DNA of 37,532 nucleotides from Campylobacterales bacterium (lineage in GTDB: Bacteria; Campylobacterota; Campylobacteria; Campylobacterales; QNZT01), in NCBI GenBank assembly GCA_016744895.1, contig JADGDK010000014.1:1-37532 (forward strand), given 5' to 3'. Below, one piece after another: positions 1 through 14,916 of the stretch. Positions within the stretch are counted from its first letter, which is position 1, and the number at the start of each line of letters is the position of its first letter. Under the pieces are notes generated by a model. That model made no database searches. It was not told the origin of the DNA and was given only the letters and a program-made list of their open reading frames with translations. Both the position numbers and the translations under genes were made by a program.

Positions 1-151
1 AGCTAGCACCGAGCAAAACAATAGTATCTTTTAACTTTTTAGGAGGAAGTGGCTTAATACCTAAAAAACTCTTTTTCTTTTTTATCACCAGATAAAGCGT
101 TAACAGAAAGGTAAAAACACCATAAATCCTAAGAGGTGAATAAAATCTCAA
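1..151 (-). CDS. N-terminal fragment of a CDS running off the left edge (N-terminal hydrophobic helix, then ...KLKDTIVLLGAS)
   Basis: Reverse-strand reading from a TTG at 151, preceded by AAGGAG, stays open to the window edge: LRFYSPLRIYGVFTFLLTLYLVIKKKKSFLGIKPLPPKKLKDTIVLLGAS. The ending could be the start of a Rossmann-type motif, but the family is not determinable. Confidence 0.4.
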   Translation of the reverse strand, partial: MRFYSPLRIYGVFTFLLTLYLVIKKKKSFLGIKPLPPKKLKDTIVLLGAS

Positions 152-323
152 ATTTTTTATTTGAGCTCCTTATGTAAAGTGCTTTATTATAGCAGTTTTT
201 AAACCTTTTAGTAGCCACACAATGTCAACTCGTCTTGACTATAAAACATTTCAATCGACATAAATCTCCTACAAACAATCGCGCTATCCTTATAAAATAC
301 ACTTCTAAATAAAAGGAGAACAG

Positions 324-1282
324 ATGAAAGAAGCCATCATACTACTCAACATGGGTGAACCAAACAATCTAAGCGAAGTAAAAGTATTTTTAAACAATAT
401 GTTCAATGATCGTCGTATCATCCAAGCACCATTACTCATACGAAAAGTCATCTCTTTTCTCATCGTAAAGTCATCTCTTTTCTCATCGTAAAGTCACGAC
501 TCAAAGAAGCCACTCAAAACTACAAAGAACTTGGAGGAAAGTCTCCTATCGTAGACTATACCAAGTCACTTATCAAAAAACTAGAGAAAAAAACAGGTGT
601 AGAGACAACCTTTGCTATGCGGTATACGCCGCCATTTACCAAAGAGGCACTAGAGAAGATAAAAGATGCAGATAAGATATATGCCATACCACTCTATCCG
701 CACTTCTCTTCTACTACAACACAGTCATCTTTTGACGCACTTTTTGAAGAAGCAGAAAAACTCGGTATAGAAGATAAGATAGTAACAGTTGATAACTATC
801 ATCTCAATCCACAGTACAATGAAGCTATCGTAAACAGTATCCAAGAGACACTAGGCGATGAAAATCCTGAAGAGTATGATCTGATATTTAGTGCACATGG
901 ACTACCACAAAAGATCATAGACCAAGGTGATCTTTACCAAAAACATATCAAAGAAAATGTAGCCTATGCTAGTCAACTTTTAAAAGAGCAAGGTATCGAC
1001 TTTGCAAATGTACATCTCGCTTACCAATCACGTGTTGGGCCACTACAGTGGACAAAACCCTACCTCGATGAAAAACTCAAAGAACTAGACAATAAAAAAG
1101 TCATTCTATACCCTATCGCTTTTACTGTTGATAACTCAGAGACAGAGTTTGAACTTGATGTAGAGTATAGAGAAGTGGCAGAAGAGTTAGGCTATGAAAG
1201 CTATAAAGTAGCCAAAGCACCTAATGATAATCCTGAGTTTATCAATGCTTTAGACAATATATATAGACGTATAAAATACTAA
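324..1282 (+). pseudogene. hemH: Ferrochelatase, frameshifted by a 23-bp tandem duplication at 444-496
   Basis: ATG at 324 after AAAAGGAGAACAG gives MKEAIILLNMGEPNNLSEVKVFLNNMFNDRRIIQAPLLIRKVISFLIVKS..., then a stop in the second repeat copy. Removing 23 bp restores ...RKVISFLIVKSRLKEATQNYKELGGKSPIVDYTKSLIKKLEKKTGVETTFAMRYTPPFTKEALEKIKDADKIYAIPLYPHFSSTTTQSSF... through the 617..1282 ORF (311 aa in total). Confidence 0.9.
444..496. repeat. 23-bp period direct tandem repeat (about 2.3 copies) inside hemH
   Basis: AAAGTCATCTCTTTTCTCATCGT occurs twice in tandem, followed by AAAGTCA. Positions i and i+23 match from 444 through 473. Confidence 0.97.
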
Positions 1283-2019: not shown

Positions 2020-2186
2020 TATGATTCCCTATAAAAAAATTAAGTATATATTATAACAATAGTTACTTACTTTATGTGTTTCTAAGAGATAGATGAAGAT
2101 ATATCACGCAATGGGAACATCTTAATGAGTTAATAGTTTCATAAAATTTTAAATAAGTGTTCCTTAACTTTTCCTAGGGACTTAGC

Positions 2187-2256
2187 GAGTTGTTTAACAA
2201 TCTCCCTCACTGGCAATAGGGTTGGAATCCCCCATAGGGTACCAATTCAACAACTC
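2187..2256. repeat. Compact about 70-bp inverted-repeat element (MITE-, REP- or RNA-like)
   Basis: Arms GAGTTGTTTAA (2187-2197) and TTCAACAACTC (2246-2256) pair over 11 bp with one mismatch. The interior has small GC-rich stems (CCCT...AGGG) that stand out in AT-rich intergenic DNA. Confidence 0.45.
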
Positions 2257-2306
2257 ACAGAAATATGAAATAGTTTGTGTTATCATGCTGAAAAGGAGTT
2301 ATTAAC

Positions 2307-3167
2307 ATGAAAGAGGTCATTAGAGTATATAAAAAGCACCAGCTTACAGTTGATAACTTTGTGATTACATTGCTTAAAAGCTTACCTCAAAACTTTATCG
2401 ACAATGCAGAGACTATTTTAAAACACAATGCATCTATTCAACTCATGTATGCTGTGGATGAATCATATCGTCAAATTACTCCTACTGTATGTAAAAAAGA
2501 GAAAGAATTGACAAGTGTAGATAGTGATAAAAGTCATTATTTTACAAAGCTTTTTCTTGATGAGGAAGGTTTCTATGTCTCCAATCCCTATATCCATTAT
2601 CGTAATGGTGCAGCAAGTATCTCTGTAGTTAAAAAGGTTGATGATATTTATCAAGTATTTGACTTCAATTTGATTTTACTTTTGGAAGAGTTACAACTGA
2701 TTAAGTATAACAGTTTGCATGAAAAGTTTAAAAAGGCTGTGTATTTACTTGGTTCTACTATGCTTGCTGTTGTTTCTATTGTGCTTATAGCATATGGTGG
2801 TTATAAGTTTGTTAGTATCTTTTTTATTGACAATTTAGATTTTTTTGAAGAAACTTTCAAGTCTATTATTGCTGTGACGTTAGGAATTGCAATTTTTGAT
2901 TTGGCAAAACAGATTTTTGAACATGAGGTGATTTTTCATTCATTTACCCATGAAGAAGATAGGCAATATAAAGTATTGGGAAAATTTTTGATCTCAATTA
3001 TCATTGCGCTTTCTATAGAAACATTGATGGTGGTTTTTAAAATAGCATTAGATGATTATACACATATGCTTTCTGCATTTTATCTTTTGATCGGTACGAC
3101 AGTGATGTTTATCGGATTGGCATATTTTTATAAAACGATTAAACAGAGTGGTTGTAGGGATGAGTGA
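2307..3167 (+). CDS. Membrane protein with N-terminal PDC/Cache-like domain and four C-terminal TM helices
   Basis: RBS AAAGGAG before ATG 2307. The N-terminal part contains ...FLDEEGFYVSNPYIHYRNGAASISVVKKVDDIYQVFDFNL..., which resembles the PDC sensor motif. About four hydrophobic helices follow from about residue 145. Confidence 0.65.
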   Translation: MKEVIRVYKKHQLTVDNFVITLLKSLPQNFIDNAETILKHNASIQLMYAVDESYRQITPTVCKKEKELTSVDSDKSHYFTKLFLDEEGFYVSNPYIHYRNGAASISVVKKVDDIYQVFDFNLILLLEELQLIKYNSLHEKFKKAVYLLGSTMLAVVSIVLIAYGGYKFVSIFFIDNLDFFEETFKSIIAVTLGIAIFDLAKQIFEHEVIFHSFTHEEDRQYKVLGKFLISIIIALSIETLMVVFKIALDDYTHMLSAFYLLIGTTVMFIGLAYFYKTIKQSGCRDE

Positions 3168-3177
3168 TTAAGTTTAC

Positions 3178-4116
3178 TTAGACTGCTACATCCAACCCAA
3201 AAAGTGCTTTAGCCTCTCCATTTTCACTCAATGCAACAGATGTTTTTTGAAGTTGAGCAATAGTAGTGTTGGAACTGTCTTTAAAATCAAAACTTCCCTT
3301 TACCGCATCAAGAGATAGTGCGCCGATTCCAGCTTCTTTAAGAGTGATGGTTTTGTCATCTTCAGCTGTTTTAACCCAAAGTTTAAGACTTTTAAATGAT
3401 GAATCATTTTCATCAATCCATCCATTTTTATCTTCATCTAGTTTTGCAAGTTCTGTAAACCCATCACCAGACTTTGGACCAAAAAGTTCACTACCATCAT
3501 TGACTTTTCCATCATTGTTTTTATCCAGTGTTAAAAAGCCACTGTTTGTTGATAGATTGGGTATATGCTCTATAGCACCACCTTTGATAAGATCAAAATC
3601 AAATCGTCCTTGACCGATCGGCGCATTTCCATCGAGTGAGATGACCAGTGGATCACTGAGGGCATCTCCTGCACGGAACTTTGTACTTTGTGTCAAGCTA
3701 AATTCTCTATGAAATTGTACATTAAGTGTAAAATCTATCTCTTTTCCATCTTCTGTACGTACGCTACCTGAGGAGTTGATATCTAATGATTGCTCTTCAT
3801 GTAGGGAGTATTCATTTGTGATCTCTAGCCCCCATCCAAAACGCTTTTCTCCATTTTCATCTGCGCTTTGCCGTTGTAGTGATGCTGAACCGTCAGAGCG
3901 AAAGGATTTCATTGAGATTTTTTTACCTGTGAGTTCTTCTAGTATCGCCACCATGGTACGTAACTTTGGATCGAGGTTTGTCTCTTCAAATTCAGACTCT
4001 TTTGGAGGTGCATTGATAGGGGTAGTTTTTTCAAAACGTATGCTCTGAGTTGACGCTTCATTTTTTACATAGTTCATAGAAGAGAAGTTGTTTACAATCG
4101 AAGATTCTATTTTCAT
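3178..4116 (-). CDS. EF-hand-type calcium-binding repeat protein
   Basis: Contains LDKNNDGKVNDGSELFG..SGDGFTELAKLDEDKNGWIDENDSSFKSLKLWV, with EF-hand-like loops. The ORF track starts at 4125 (GTG); ATG at 4116 (MKIESS) has the better RBS spacing. Confidence 0.7.
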   Translation of the reverse strand: MKIESSIVNNFSSMNYVKNEASTQSIRFEKTTPINAPPKESEFEETNLDPKLRTMVAILEELTGKKISMKSFRSDGSASLQRQSADENGEKRFGWGLEITNEYSLHEEQSLDINSSGSVRTEDGKEIDFTLNVQFHREFSLTQSTKFRAGDALSDPLVISLDGNAPIGQGRFDFDLIKGGAIEHIPNLSTNSGFLTLDKNNDGKVNDGSELFGPKSGDGFTELAKLDEDKNGWIDENDSSFKSLKLWVKTAEDDKTITLKEAGIGALSLDAVKGSFDFKDSSNTTIAQLQKTSVALSENGEAKALFGLDVAV

Positions 4117-4192
4117 AACACCCACCTTTTTAGTCTCTATACTACTAAATCGGTTATTCCAATAGATTCTATGTATCTATCTTATCACTACA

Positions 4193-4207
4193 GCCCTAAA
4201 ATAGGGC
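4193..4207 (-). terminator. Small hairpin, likely terminator of the epimerase gene
   Basis: GCCCT-AAAAT-AGGGC, just downstream of the minus-strand ORF ending at 4241. Confidence 0.4.
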
Positions 4208-4240
4208 GTTTATTTACTATTTGTAACTTATATAACCGAC

Positions 4241-5062
4241 TTATGAGTCTAAAAGGTGTTCCAATGAACGTTCGATTGTTGGATATTTAAAGCTAAACCC
4301 AGCATTTTGTAGTGCTTTTGGATAGATTTCTTTCGAACCTGTTAACACAGATGCCGCTTCTGCATACATAGTCTTCAAAGCAAGTTCAGGGATGGGTAAA
4401 ATGGTAGGGCGATTGAGTACCTTACCTAATGCTTTTGTAAAAGTGTAGTTGCTTACAGGAGTTGGAGATGAAGCATTGAAAATTCCTGTAAGTCTGTTCT
4501 CGATGACAAAATGGTAAATACGCATCAAGTCCTCGATATCGATCCAACTTGTCATCATCTTTCCATCGCCGATGATACCTCCAACACCTAACCGAAATGG
4601 AGTGAGCATCTGTGCAAGTGCACCTCCATTTTCCCCTAGTATGACACTAAAGCGTAAAATAGTGGTTGGTTTTTCACAAAGAAGCGCTTCTTTCTCCCAG
4701 TTAGTAGTCAGTTGTCCTAGAAAATCATCTGCTATTAATTGACATGACTCATCACATGCGATATCATCAGGATAGATACCGATAGCAGAAGTTGAGATAA
4801 AGTGAGAAACTTGACTCTGATTAAGCACTTTTACAAGTTTTTTGGTCGTATCTATACGACTTTTTATAAGTACTTTTTTGTAAGGGGTACTCCACCGTTT
4901 TATGATAGGTGCACCAGCTAAATTAATGACTATATCAACATCTTTTAATTTTTTTAAGATCATAGTTTCATCATCATTTCTTTCAATTACGACGATATCT
5001 TGAAACTGTTTTTGTAGTGCATTCCCCACAAAGCCGTTTGCTCCAGTAAGTGCTATTTTCAT
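4241..5062 (-). CDS. TIGR01777-family NAD-dependent epimerase/dehydratase (YfcH-like)
   Basis: MKIALTGANGFVGNALQKQF... Rossmann motif, INLAGAPIIKRW, SSAIGIYP. Start at 5062 with AAAGGAGTCAATC upstream; the ORF track extends to 5089. Confidence 0.85.
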   Translation of the reverse strand: MKIALTGANGFVGNALQKQFQDIVVIERNDDETMILKKLKDVDIVINLAGAPIIKRWSTPYKKVLIKSRIDTTKKLVKVLNQSQVSHFISTSAIGIYPDDIACDESCQLIADDFLGQLTTNWEKEALLCEKPTTILRFSVILGENGGALAQMLTPFRLGVGGIIGDGKMMTSWIDIEDLMRIYHFVIENRLTGIFNASSPTPVSNYTFTKALGKVLNRPTILPIPELALKTMYAEAASVLTGSKEIYPKALQNAGFSFKYPTIERSLEHLLDS

Positions 5063-5125
5063 GATTGACTCCTTTACAAATATATTCACATGTTACTCAG
5101 AAATGATGTATAAAGTGTGTAGTGT

Positions 5126-5509
5126 TTATTTATCACTTTTATCTGTATATACTTCTGCTAAAGCTTTTTCTCTTTTTTGTTTCCAAATACTTAATAACGT
5201 TTGTTGGTCAATTTTAGAGTTATCTGCGGAAAGTGTGTTAAGTGTTGGATGGACTTTTGTTCCTGATGGTACAAGATCTAATACTCCATTTACTTCACCT
5301 ATCTTCCCATATTCGTAGTTTTTTGATTGATTGTTGTATTTAATGATATGGTTTTTATTGTCTTGAACCCAATTAAACCACTCATCCCCTTTTACTTTTC
5401 CAATAAAAATAGTGCCATCTTTTTGTTTGAATTCTATATCTCCTTTGAATGCAGGAGCTCCAAATGTTAGTGTTGCAATGGCACTAGTTAATAGTATTAT
5501 TTTTTGCAT
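5126..5509 (-). CDS. Small secreted hypothetical protein
   Basis: MQKIILLTSAIATLTFGAPA signal peptide; lies 11 bp downstream of the M6 protease ORF on the same strand. Confidence 0.65.
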   Translation of the reverse strand: MQKIILLTSAIATLTFGAPAFKGDIEFKQKDGTIFIGKVKGDEWFNWVQDNKNHIIKYNNQSKNYEYGKIGEVNGVLDLVPSGTKVHPTLNTLSADNSKIDQQTLLSIWKQKREKALAEVYTDKSDK

Positions 5510-5520
5510 CTAATTTTTCC

Positions 5521-7662
5521 TTATTGTATCTCTATATCTGCAAACATAGAAGCACCATTATCTGAAATATTTGTGATACTGATTCCACTACTTCTAGCGT
5601 TATATAGATTTGAATTTGGTGTTGTTGTGGGTGTGAAACTATCAACATTTCCTGAAAAATAAAGGTTATGTGTATGCCCTCTATGTTCACCAGTATCTAA
5701 ACCTACATTGTTTGCCTCTTCAATGTCTACTAGTTTATGTGTTTCATCATTATTATCATATACATTATCATCAATATGTAAAATAGATAAACCCCCTGTA
5801 AAAGTATTACCTTTCAATAAAGATAGTCCTCTATCGTAACCATTATTTGTTCGATTTTCAACTAAAAAATATTCACCTGAACGCTGTGTAGTTATCTTAT
5901 ATAGTTGATAGTCTATATAAGAAGTTCCGCGAAATTCTAAAGTTGAACTATTGTTTTCTATGACTATTGGATCAACAAATCCAGACTGCATTTTACTCCA
6001 TCCCGTCATATGTGTTGGTGTCATACCTGGTGATTCTGTTATAGATTTTTTGCCCCAGTTACCAGCTCCCATAAGACCAAAATTTCCTATACCTTCAGAG
6101 ACGCCATCAAGGTCAGTATCATAAAGATCTGGTAATCCTAGAGCTGAATGTCCCAACTCATGTGCTATGATACCTATAGTTGCATCAGTACCATGTTGAA
6201 AGTGACTCTCACCAAATCTTGAATACCAGCCATCTGTACTGCACTCCATCAGTTTCACGCCATCAAGTGTAGGTGCATTAGTATTGCCTCCATACATACA
6301 CCAAGCATGTGCCCAAATACCTGGACTTAATCCAGTTGAGCGCTCCCCACCTGCTACTAAAAACATTACTTGGAGTTCATCTCTTGAGATTGCATTATTA
6401 TGATCAGTGTCATATTGGGCGTAGTTGATATAGCTATTTGTTAATTGTATTGCTTCAACAATTCTATTTGGAAAATCATCAACATCATTGGGGTGATTTT
6501 CATTAAGTGATACTGTGATAATTCCATCATTTGTTGTAGCTTGAGTCTCTATAGCTTTTTCAAATTGTAATTTTCCATAAGATATTTCATTGTAGTAGTG
6601 GTTTAATTCACCATCACCTGTTCCAAATATTTTTTGACTCCAAACTGAAGCATCACTGTGGAATTTATAATCATTAAATTCTATACGTATAATTACTAAT
6701 GGTAGTTTATTTGTAACATTTATACTTACACGATCACTTGTAGTTGCATTTTCATTGTCTGTAGCAGTCAATGTAAGCTCATGGATGCCAACTGTTTGGG
6801 GTTTGTATTTAAATGTAGGTTGATCAGATAAAATTTTATTAGATTCTCTCCATTCGTATTTTATGATTTCACCATCACTATCAGTTGCATTTCCAGATAC
6901 CCAAGTTTCATGTCCAACTTTTATTTTTTGATCTTCCCCTGCATTTACTAGTGGAGTATCATTAACTGTTCTAATTAAAATATATACTGTAGCTTCATTA
7001 GAGTCAGAGTTTCCATCATTCACTTTATATCTTACTGTATCACTTCCTCTAAAGTTTTCATTAGGGGTGTATGTCAAATTGGGAAAAATACCATTTAAGG
7101 TTCCATGTATGGGGTTGGAGGTTACAATCATTGTAAGAGGATCCCCTTCAACATCATCTGCTTCTATAGTAAAAGATACCTCTTGATCTTCATCTGTAAC
7201 AATATTTTGGTCTAGTAAAATTGGAATATCATTTGTATCGTTTGATGGAAGAATAGTGATTGTCATTGTATCACTATCTGATTCTCCATGAGCATCAGTA
7301 ACAGTAAAGGTTATATTGTGTTCTCCTTCACTAAAATCATTTTTAGTAAAATCCTTCTTTGTAGATAGTAGGGTTTCACCTTCTTGCCACTTGAAAGATA
7401 GCTGGTCATCATCTGCATCATACGCACCACCAGAAAAGTTAATTAAAACTCCATTTTCTCTTGTGAGTTTATTAACTATTTCAGCTTCTGGTTTAGTGTT
7501 TGTTACGATCTCTTCAGTAGCTGGGATATCTTGTTTCTTCGTTGGAGTCTGTGTAACTTCTTGTACGATTTTATTTTTAGGTGTCTCATCTACTGCACCT
7601 CCACAGGCGGAAAATAAGAAAGTCATTATAATGAATGTAGATAATTTAAATATATATGACAA
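5521..7662 (-). CDS. M6-family metalloprotease-domain lipoprotein with PKD/cadherin-like repeats
   Basis: Zn motif GIIAHELGHSALGLPDLYD and GLMGAGNWG. N-terminal Ig-like repeats include DEDQEVSFTIEADDVEGDPL...PNENFRGSDTVRYKVNDG and a PKD-like VNAGEDQKIKVG...GEIIKYEW. Lipobox LFSAC. TTG start at 7662 preceded by AAGGAG-6 nt. The track start at 7893 overlaps msrBA and is unlikely. Confidence 0.85.
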   Translation of the reverse strand: MSYIFKLSTFIIMTFLFSACGGAVDETPKNKIVQEVTQTPTKKQDIPATEEIVTNTKPEAEIVNKLTRENGVLINFSGGAYDADDDQLSFKWQEGETLLSTKKDFTKNDFSEGEHNITFTVTDAHGESDSDTMTITILPSNDTNDIPILLDQNIVTDEDQEVSFTIEADDVEGDPLTMIVTSNPIHGTLNGIFPNLTYTPNENFRGSDTVRYKVNDGNSDSNEATVYILIRTVNDTPLVNAGEDQKIKVGHETWVSGNATDSDGEIIKYEWRESNKILSDQPTFKYKPQTVGIHELTLTATDNENATTSDRVSINVTNKLPLVIIRIEFNDYKFHSDASVWSQKIFGTGDGELNHYYNEISYGKLQFEKAIETQATTNDGIITVSLNENHPNDVDDFPNRIVEAIQLTNSYINYAQYDTDHNNAISRDELQVMFLVAGGERSTGLSPGIWAHAWCMYGGNTNAPTLDGVKLMECSTDGWYSRFGESHFQHGTDATIGIIAHELGHSALGLPDLYDTDLDGVSEGIGNFGLMGAGNWGKKSITESPGMTPTHMTGWSKMQSGFVDPIVIENNSSTLEFRGTSYIDYQLYKITTQRSGEYFLVENRTNNGYDRGLSLLKGNTFTGGLSILHIDDNVYDNNDETHKLVDIEEANNVGLDTGEHRGHTHNLYFSGNVDSFTPTTTPNSNLYNARSSGISITNISDNGASMFADIEIQ

Positions 7663-7762
7663 AAGAAGCTCCTTACTGAATGTAAATGTTGTTAACAATA
7701 TATCGGTAATTGTGCTATAAACATTACACAGAGTTTTTGTAAAATAGGCTAAAGGAGATATT

Positions 7763-8692
7763 ATGAGAAAAGATGTTTTAATTGTGTTACTGCTGATTTT
7801 GAGCGGTATTTTATATCTAAATGGGGAGGGAAGAAAAGTGGAGTTTAAAAAATTAAATGAACAAGAGGCGAGGGTGATTGTCCATAAAGGCACAGAAGCA
7901 CCATATACCGGAAAGTATGATAAGTTTTATGAAAAAGGTACTTATACGTGTAAAAGATGTGGTACACCACTTTATAATTCATCTGATAAGTTTAGTTCAG
8001 GTTGTGGCTGGCCTAGTTTTGATGATGAGATTGAAGGTGCTGTCAAAAGAGTACCTGATGCAGATGGTAGACGTGTAGAGATTGTATGTGCAAATTGTGA
8101 CGGACATTTAGGACATGTGTTTGAGGGAGAACAGATGACTCCTAAAAATACAAGACATTGTGTAAACTCAATTTCTATGGACTTTGAACCAGCGACTAAA
8201 AAAAATAGTAAAAAAGCATATTTTGCAGGTGGATGTTTTTGGGGTGTTGAGTACCATTTTGAGAAAGTTCCAGGTGTCATTGCTGCTGATAGTGGATATA
8301 TGGGTGGACATAAAGATGATCCAACATACAAAGAGGTTTGTTATACAGATACGGGACATTTGGAAGTTGTTGAAGTGACTTATGATTCTTCAGTTGTAGA
8401 TTTTGAGACATTAACAAAACTCTTTTTTGAGATCCATGATCCAACACAGGCAAATGGACAAGGCCCGGATATCGGAAGTCAATATCTATCTGCAATTTTT
8501 TACAATGACGAAGAAGAAAAAGTCGCAACTGAAAAATTGATATCGATCTTGGAGTCAAAGGGATTAAAAGTGGCTACTAAGCTAATTGATGCTAAAAAAC
8601 ATCCTTTTTATGCGGCTGAGGATTACCATCAAGATTATTATAAAAAGCATAACAAACAACCGTATTGTCATAGTTATACAAAAAGATTTTAG
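7763..8692 (+). CDS. msrBA: Bifunctional peptide methionine sulfoxide reductase (MsrB-MsrA fusion), exported
   Basis: N-terminal signal anchor. MsrB part: CKRCGTPLYNSSDKFSSGCGWPSFDDEI...CANCDGHLGHVFEGE...RHCVNSISMDF. MsrA part: KAYFAGGCFWGVEYHFEKVPGVIAADSGYMGG. Confidence 0.95.
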   Translation: MRKDVLIVLLLILSGILYLNGEGRKVEFKKLNEQEARVIVHKGTEAPYTGKYDKFYEKGTYTCKRCGTPLYNSSDKFSSGCGWPSFDDEIEGAVKRVPDADGRRVEIVCANCDGHLGHVFEGEQMTPKNTRHCVNSISMDFEPATKKNSKKAYFAGGCFWGVEYHFEKVPGVIAADSGYMGGHKDDPTYKEVCYTDTGHLEVVEVTYDSSVVDFETLTKLFFEIHDPTQANGQGPDIGSQYLSAIFYNDEEEKVATEKLISILESKGLKVATKLIDAKKHPFYAAEDYHQDYYKKHNKQPYCHSYTKRF

Positions 8693-12543: not shown

Positions 12544-14916
12544 TTACTTTTTGCGTCTTCTTAACCAAAACCATACAATTAAACCACCTATTACAAGTGG
12601 TAGAAGCACTTGTACCCATGCTCCGATATTTAAAAGTTTATTTAAAATATCTCCATGCATCTTTTTATCTATCTTTACCCCAGCCATATTAGCAGCATGT
12701 GTCATGGCTGAAACTGCAAGATTTCCTTCAGGAATACTTTGATGACAGCTAAGACACATACCTCGACGATCAAGTTTTGCTCTTGTTTCATTATCAAGTG
12801 CAGCGGAGAGTTTCCAGTGATTTCCAACGGTCTGTACTTGGGTGCCATTTTCATCTATCATTACAGAGTAGTCATGTTTTAGATTTGCAATGGCAGGAAT
12901 CTGTTCATCAATTTGTTTAGGGAGGACTTTTTGATCTGCGGTCATTAAATCAGTAATTGTTGTTTTAGTTTGATCTGCAAAATATTTTCCACCATTAATA
13001 CCATAACCCATAGCTTTTGCACTGGTATGACAGCTCTCACATGGTCGAGGTTTTTTGCTAATAGTATGTGGTTGTACAGGAGACATGGTGATAGAGTTGA
13101 TACCCTCTTTGCCAGCACCTTCGACATTTGGTATTTTCCAGATATGGTTTTGAAGTAGGGCATTTCCTTTTTTACCGATTACGGTTAGTGTGACTTGACA
13201 TCCAGGAATCGTAGGAGAAACACGTCCCTCTCCATTTCTACTGAGTGCTGGATCTTCCCATCTTAGATAGGATCTTGTTTCAGTTACTTTTCCATCAACA
13301 AGAAAGTTTTTAAGATCATCTATTTCTCCAGTTTTACCATTGACATGGGCTTTAGATGCCGCAAGATAATCTGGATTTTGATTTCCATTTGAGTAGTCTA
13401 TTTTTACATGGCATCCATAACATTGAGGAGCCCACGTGGCATGACATGTGTAGCACTCTAATTTGTCAGTATGTGCTTTGATTTGATCCATGGCAACCAA
13501 TCCCTCTTTGGAGATTTTGTCATCCTTTTTGAGCTTTTTAAGTGGGGTGAGTGTGATATCTTTTCCACTTGCTAGATGCATGACAACATGGTTACCTTTT
13601 TTGACCGCTTTTGTGAGTGGGTTTCCACGTGCTGAAAGTAAAAAACCATCACCTTTATCTTTAGGAATAGAACCCTGTTTAAGATACTCTGCAAGAGTTT
13701 TAGTTGTTCCTCTTGCTTTTCCCGCTTTGGGTTTAGTATCAAATTCATCACTATAGCCTAGTGGTAATTCCCAAGGGTATTTATCTGTAGTACCATGGCA
13801 GTCTTGACACTCAATCTCAACAGCGCCTAAGTTTGCTCCTCTAAAAAATCCATCTCCGTGCATGTCATTTGATGTGTGACAGTCTTGACAAAGCATACCT
13901 TTGGAGTAGTGTATATCTTCTGTTAGATGTAGATAGCGTTTGGTATGTAGTTTTGGTTGTCCGTTTCCATCTTTGTCAAATGTCGCTTTGTATTCTGTTT
14001 CCATAAGCCCTTGATAAGATACACCGATTCGTTTTCCTCTGTTATGACAAGTGGTACAAGTCTCTACTGGAATACCAGAATAGTTTATATCATGTACTTT
14101 GACTTTTGTTTTTCTTGAGGATTGGATAGAGTGGATAAGCATATGTCCATCTTCAGTTTTTGAGATACTTTTATCTTTTCCTTCGTATAGTCCAGCATTG
14201 GAGTAGGGGATATGACATGAAGCACAACCAAGACCTCGATAATCACCTCTTTTTTTACGACCTTTCCCACTGGTATGACATCGTAAACACTCTTGACGAA
14301 GATAAGTATAAACAGAGAGACTAGGATCTTTTTCAATTTCATCAGCGGTTGGTGCAGCTGGAAGCTCTTTAGTCTCTTTTGGAAAACCTTGAGGTTCTAG
14401 CTCTGCAAGCTCTTCCATATATTTTTTATAGGTTTCAGTACCTAAACGTTTATGTGGATCAGGAGATTTTCCACCAAAATTTGTGTATGTATGTTCATAT
14501 CCATCTTTTCCACCAAAACCCCAAAGCGCACCATGTATTTTACCTTGTTCTGTTGCCATGAGATTGTTAAACTGTGCACTGACTTGTTCTTGGTGACACA
14601 TTCCACATGTGTTTTCATTAATCCATGCACTTGCAGGATAGGGGTAAAACTCTTTAGGCCCTTTATGGCTTTTAAAGTAGCCAATCGTGCCACTATGAGA
14701 CTTTTCTTTATTTTTTTCTTTTGGATTACCCCCATGACAAACAATACAGTCGTTTCCTTTTGCTCCAGCTTTTTCAGCAACTTTTAAAATTTCTTTCATC
14801 ATATCAGAGTTTCTGTCTCTGATATCAGCGATGCCAGTGTGACACTCTAGACATGTATTTTGATTTGCAAAAAGTATCGTTATAGATAGAAATAGTAAGA
14901 TAGAAATAGTTCTCAT
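12544..14916 (-). CDS. Dodecaheme c-type cytochrome with C-terminal membrane anchor
   Basis: Signal peptide MRTISILLFLSITILFA. Twelve CXXCH motifs: CLECH, CIVCH, CGMCH, CLRCH, CASCH, CTTCH, CQDCH, CQDCH, CYTCH, CYGCH, CESCH, CLSCH. C-terminal TM LLPLVIGGLIVWFWLRRRKK. Confidence 0.93.
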   Translation of the reverse strand: MRTISILLFLSITILFANQNTCLECHTGIADIRDRNSDMMKEILKVAEKAGAKGNDCIVCHGGNPKEKNKEKSHSGTIGYFKSHKGPKEFYPYPASAWINENTCGMCHQEQVSAQFNNLMATEQGKIHGALWGFGGKDGYEHTYTNFGGKSPDPHKRLGTETYKKYMEELAELEPQGFPKETKELPAAPTADEIEKDPSLSVYTYLRQECLRCHTSGKGRKKRGDYRGLGCASCHIPYSNAGLYEGKDKSISKTEDGHMLIHSIQSSRKTKVKVHDINYSGIPVETCTTCHNRGKRIGVSYQGLMETEYKATFDKDGNGQPKLHTKRYLHLTEDIHYSKGMLCQDCHTSNDMHGDGFFRGANLGAVEIECQDCHGTTDKYPWELPLGYSDEFDTKPKAGKARGTTKTLAEYLKQGSIPKDKGDGFLLSARGNPLTKAVKKGNHVVMHLASGKDITLTPLKKLKKDDKISKEGLVAMDQIKAHTDKLECYTCHATWAPQCYGCHVKIDYSNGNQNPDYLAASKAHVNGKTGEIDDLKNFLVDGKVTETRSYLRWEDPALSRNGEGRVSPTIPGCQVTLTVIGKKGNALLQNHIWKIPNVEGAGKEGINSITMSPVQPHTISKKPRPCESCHTSAKAMGYGINGGKYFADQTKTTITDLMTADQKVLPKQIDEQIPAIANLKHDYSVMIDENGTQVQTVGNHWKLSAALDNETRAKLDRRGMCLSCHQSIPEGNLAVSAMTHAANMAGVKIDKKMHGDILNKLLNIGAWVQVLLPLVIGGLIVWFWLRRRKK

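Follow-up and report, generated by a model that had tools for sequence, protein, structure and literature searches.

A second, type B ferrochelatase gene of a Campylobacterales bacterium disrupted by a 23-bp tandem duplication flanked by microhomology

Tandem duplications within the pneumococcal capsule genes cap and tts switch these genes off and can revert, according to the passages of PMC4022640 that cite Waite et al. (2001, 2003), and reversible microhomology-mediated tandem duplications have been described in ssp1 of Schizosaccharomyces pombe (PMC13207564). Paired ferrochelatases are likewise known: HemH1 and HemH2 are redundant in Shewanella, whose cytochrome-rich strain MR-1 tolerates deletion of either one (PMC6664582), and a pair is also found in Bacillus thuringiensis (PMC11988928). 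The locus described here, hemH-B, resembles the capsule and ssp1 duplications in having short direct repeats at the segment ends within coding sequence, two exact copies and a broken frame, whereas it differs from them in being a gene for a redundant metabolic enzyme that is known here from assembled sequence alone. As in Shewanella and B. thuringiensis, two divergent ferrochelatases occur in one genome, and as in Shewanella the host is rich in c-type cytochromes; unlike those pairs, one copy is frameshifted, and the predicted ferrochelatases belong to clades of this bacterial order.

The window analyzed is the entire contig C55 (37,532 bp) of a draft genome comprising 370 contigs and 3.08 Mb, for which the assessment tool estimates a bin contamination of 5.4%. 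On its plus strand, hemH-B begins at ATG 324, preceded by a good ribosome-binding site (AAAAGGAGAACAG), and continues for 55 codons to a TAA at 489–491 that arises at the duplication junction; this N-terminal fragment (324–491) matches TIGR00109 at 2.8e-10. The remainder lies in the -1 frame (410–1282, with its stop codon at 1280–1282), matches TIGR00109 at 1e-72, and by itself passes the curated cut-off of that profile (245 bits vs 124.6). The two fragments match consecutive profile positions, the PF00762 score is 263 bits, and the conserved SAH and DNSETEFELD motifs, which surround the catalytic His and Glu, are present as FSAHGLP and DNSETEFELDVEY and align with those of relatives, their human counterparts being FSAHSLP and TSDHIETLYELDIEY. 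The family match is interrupted at codons 48–56 by the duplication, so that an uninterrupted reading frame of about 310 residues is precluded by the TAA at 489–491; no further stops or frameshifts were seen in 410–1282. Deletion of one unit yields a frame of 311 codons, exactly as the sequence-only reading of this DNA had claimed and in keeping with the 308-residue nearest ortholog. Because the product as it stands is a 55-residue stub, the allele is considered null.

The 23-mers at 444–466 and 467–489 (both plus strand, identified by direct reading and by TRF) are identical (AAAGTCATCTCTTTTCTCATCGT), and AAAGTCA at 490–496 repeats the first seven bases of the unit as a partial third copy and supplies the distal microhomology of the duplication. 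TRF reports the array with period 23, 2.7 copies and a score of 108. Since 23 bp do not make a whole number of codons, the frame shifts by -1. AAAGTCA thus stands at 444, 467 and 490, that is, at both segment ends, the arrangement that characterizes microhomology-mediated tandem duplication. No other perfect tandem duplication with a unit longer than 9 bp occurs across the window, which argues that the array is not a chance feature. The sequence-only reading had held that hemH is broken by a 23-bp tandem duplication, that the duplication is a change from an ancestral state, and that a pair of AAAGTCA copies served as template for slippage. All three proposals are upheld: the units are identical, the frame is shifted and a stop lies at the junction; no other aligned ferrochelatase has an insertion at this site; and direct repeats of 7 bp bound the segment on either side, as would be expected from slippage. 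The use of one such pair is itself unremarkable because pairs of this kind are common, with 203 pairs of at least 7 bp identity, 10–50 bp apart, in the window (approximately one per 185 bp).

A second ferrochelatase gene, hemH-A, is found elsewhere in the genome, on contig C131 (positions 1–597, minus strand), as an open frame of 199 codons cut off by the contig end. It shares 71–85% identity with the hemH gene of each of the five sister genomes, and the gene order on C131 (hypothetical protein, histidine kinase, HMA protein, hemH) is kept in those genomes, apart from G004, where no HMA-domain gene was detected; the identity and the shared neighborhood together indicate that hemH-A is the vertically inherited copy. 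The genome search thus settles in its favor an alternative already raised from the window, that of a second ferrochelatase. The claim that ferrochelatase is lost is accordingly borne out for the window gene and not supported for the genome, since hemH-B is one of two and the genus-standard copy lies on C131. The supposed conflict with the 12-heme cytochrome of the window, whose 12 CXXCH motifs are confirmed at 12544–14916, likewise disappears once hemH-A is known. No other contig of the assembly was found to hold the final third of hemH-A, most likely because of a contig break; as C131 ends within the gene its integrity is unproven, and it is taken here to be complete past the contig end and active.

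In a maximum-likelihood tree of 51 ferrochelatases, type A, which occurs throughout the family, and type B form separate groups. The C131 copy falls inside the type A clade of the genus, whereas the window copy lies within the well-supported clade B as sister (support 100/99) to the extra copy of the sister genome G002. That copy, the nearest ortholog of hemH-B (MAG O_S4.2_bin.7, JAHZKW010000111; 308 aa, 72% identical), is intact and stands alongside a type A gene, and G002 is the only one of the five sister genomes with type B; among 23 genomes of the family, only G002 and the source genome have two ferrochelatases. Type B also holds genes of four other families of the order, many genomes of which carry two ferrochelatase matches. 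The different clade, its presence in one sister of five and its frequency in other families indicate that hemH-B is an accessory copy, probably acquired. In a separate observation, a type B query gave no match in two nearly complete genomes of the order (G318 and G380, 99–100%), a result that may mean true absence or may stem from the limits of the first-look filter.

The surroundings of hemH-B bear on its possible origin. The start of a UbiB/AarF (ABC1 kinase)-like gene that runs off the contig start (1–170, minus strand) has 53% identity over 49 residues to a protein of locus L043 with a Pfam ABC1 match, and a UbiB-like gene adjoins hemH-B in genome G095 too. An NAD-dependent epimerase with DUF1731 (SDR39U1-like; 4241–5089, minus strand), 3 kb away, is 60–73% identical to epimerases adjoining hemH-B in other families, so that both of these genes correspond to type B neighbors there. 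The epimerase belongs to a block (2020–5128) that is missing in G001 and G005 between the DUF6858 gene and the gene at 5126–5509, and that also encodes proteins of 286 aa and 315 aa, neither with a Pfam match, the latter having a DKNNDGKVNDG-type stretch; the block represents either an insertion in the source genome or a deletion in G001 and G005. The type B surroundings and the absence of the block suggest, without proving it, that hemH-B was gained horizontally. A shared chromosomal site for the gene in G002 was considered and rejected, as no other genes are shared. More generally, SDR39U1-like epimerases are frequent neighbors of type B hemH, and in families f6, f16 and f20 (loci L041, L043, L044 and L046) type B hemH lies directly 5' of a gene for an FAD-dependent desaturase/amine-oxidase-like protein, Pfam having been run on the L041 protein only; this conserved neighborhood might hint at the role of type B.

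Compared with the G002 copy by the NG86 method, hemH-B has a dN of 0.26 and a saturated dS of about 2.8, giving a ratio of approximately 0.1, and its branch in the tree is without acceleration, suggesting that the gene was under purifying selection until recently. Such constraint implies that the duplication is young, unfixed, or a product of assembly. Taken together, these data make it probable that hemH-B is an accessory second ferrochelatase recently nulled by one microhomology-mediated 23-bp tandem duplication, with type A supplying haem. Two AAAGTCA copies 23 bp apart would have seeded replication slippage, a single recent event would have duplicated the 23 bp, and the extra bases would have moved the frame by -1, so that translation stops where the second unit ends; the null allele would be tolerated because haem comes from type A. 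The duplication is therefore best explained as affecting either a gene that the organism can do without or only a subpopulation of its cells. The broken gene would then represent the ordinary loss of a redundant copy and not a danger to haem supply, and a clean case of a redundant gene starting to decay through microhomology slippage. The existence of two hemH clades, of which type B is patchy, is of moderate interest for haem supply in cytochrome-rich bacteria of the Campylobacterota type. If hemH-A were truncated or absent, hemH-B would be the only ferrochelatase and the case would be striking; the example also cautions that a broken housekeeping gene on one draft contig says little before the whole genome is searched.

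The strongest alternative, although unlikely, is that the true or dominant allele has a single unit and that the extra one belongs to minority cells or was introduced by a chimeric read or by the assembler. The fragmented draft bin with its estimated contamination, the position of the duplication approximately 450 bp from a contig end, and the otherwise undamaged state of hemH-B, which indicates a change that is very recent or not fixed, are all compatible with such an artefact. Against it, the assembly holds one allele only, no other contig carrying the one-unit form, and the reading frames of C55 align to those of sister genomes free of frameshifts where compared. Moreover, the 53-bp array is shorter than an ordinary short read, and assemblers usually collapse repeats and seldom expand them. 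The duplication is thus taken to exist in cells and not to have been made during assembly. The contig itself was rejected as a contaminant, given that its SecY is the single copy in the genome and 92–97% identical to those of sister genomes and that the DUF6858 gene adjoining hemH-B (1633–2019) is 91% identical in G001.

Far less probable is a reversible switch, in which slippage would contract the duplication at appreciable frequency and so generate subpopulations with hemH-B on or off, as the sequence-only reading had entertained. Here, as phase variation by tandem duplication calls for, an open reading frame holds a perfect two-copy repeat whose unit length is no multiple of 3, the capsule and ssp1 duplications provide precedents, and reversal by slippage is mechanistically possible. 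However, there are two copies only, and low-rate reversion is open to any two-copy duplication, which means that reversibility alone does not make a switch. Comparable 7-bp pairs are ordinary in the window, and any phenotype would be masked by hemH-A. Nor is the repeat kept among relatives as a contingency locus would be: the G002 ortholog reads AAAATCA ... GAAGTCA at the matching positions and therefore does not share the perfect pair, and it has no duplication. No positive evidence of phase variability was thus obtained, and no report of a phase-variable hemH was found in the open literature searched. More doubtful still is the proposal that such a switch toggles cells between two- and one-ferrochelatase states, tuning haem or porphyrin supply for multihaem cytochromes. 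Finally, a working split or recoded protein, made by -1 ribosomal frameshifting or by re-initiation at ATG 617, is scarcely credible and was rejected: although the frames overlap and are both open over 410–491, that overlap lacks both an X XXY YYZ slippery heptamer and any homopolymer of at least 6, the first usual start of the downstream frame, at 617, has no ribosome-binding site, and its product would be missing some 90 residues at the N-terminus, among them the GGKSP motif common to all relatives.

Several minor features were noted elsewhere in the window. A non-coding stretch of approximately 107 bp at 1397–1503 is 82% identical to G000:C342:12046-12153 and is a dispersed repeat, partly inverted-repeat in character. 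The short reading frame at 1534–1593 (MSIADIKKMPLVEKRAQDG), too short for profile tools, resembles by eye a shortened start of an addiction-module antitoxin. The multihaem product of 12544–14916 has 790 residues and an MtrC/MtrF-like domain match. The large protein encoded at 5521–7893 combines PKD/Big_9 repeats with a partial M6 peptidase family match, and is probably secreted or on the surface.
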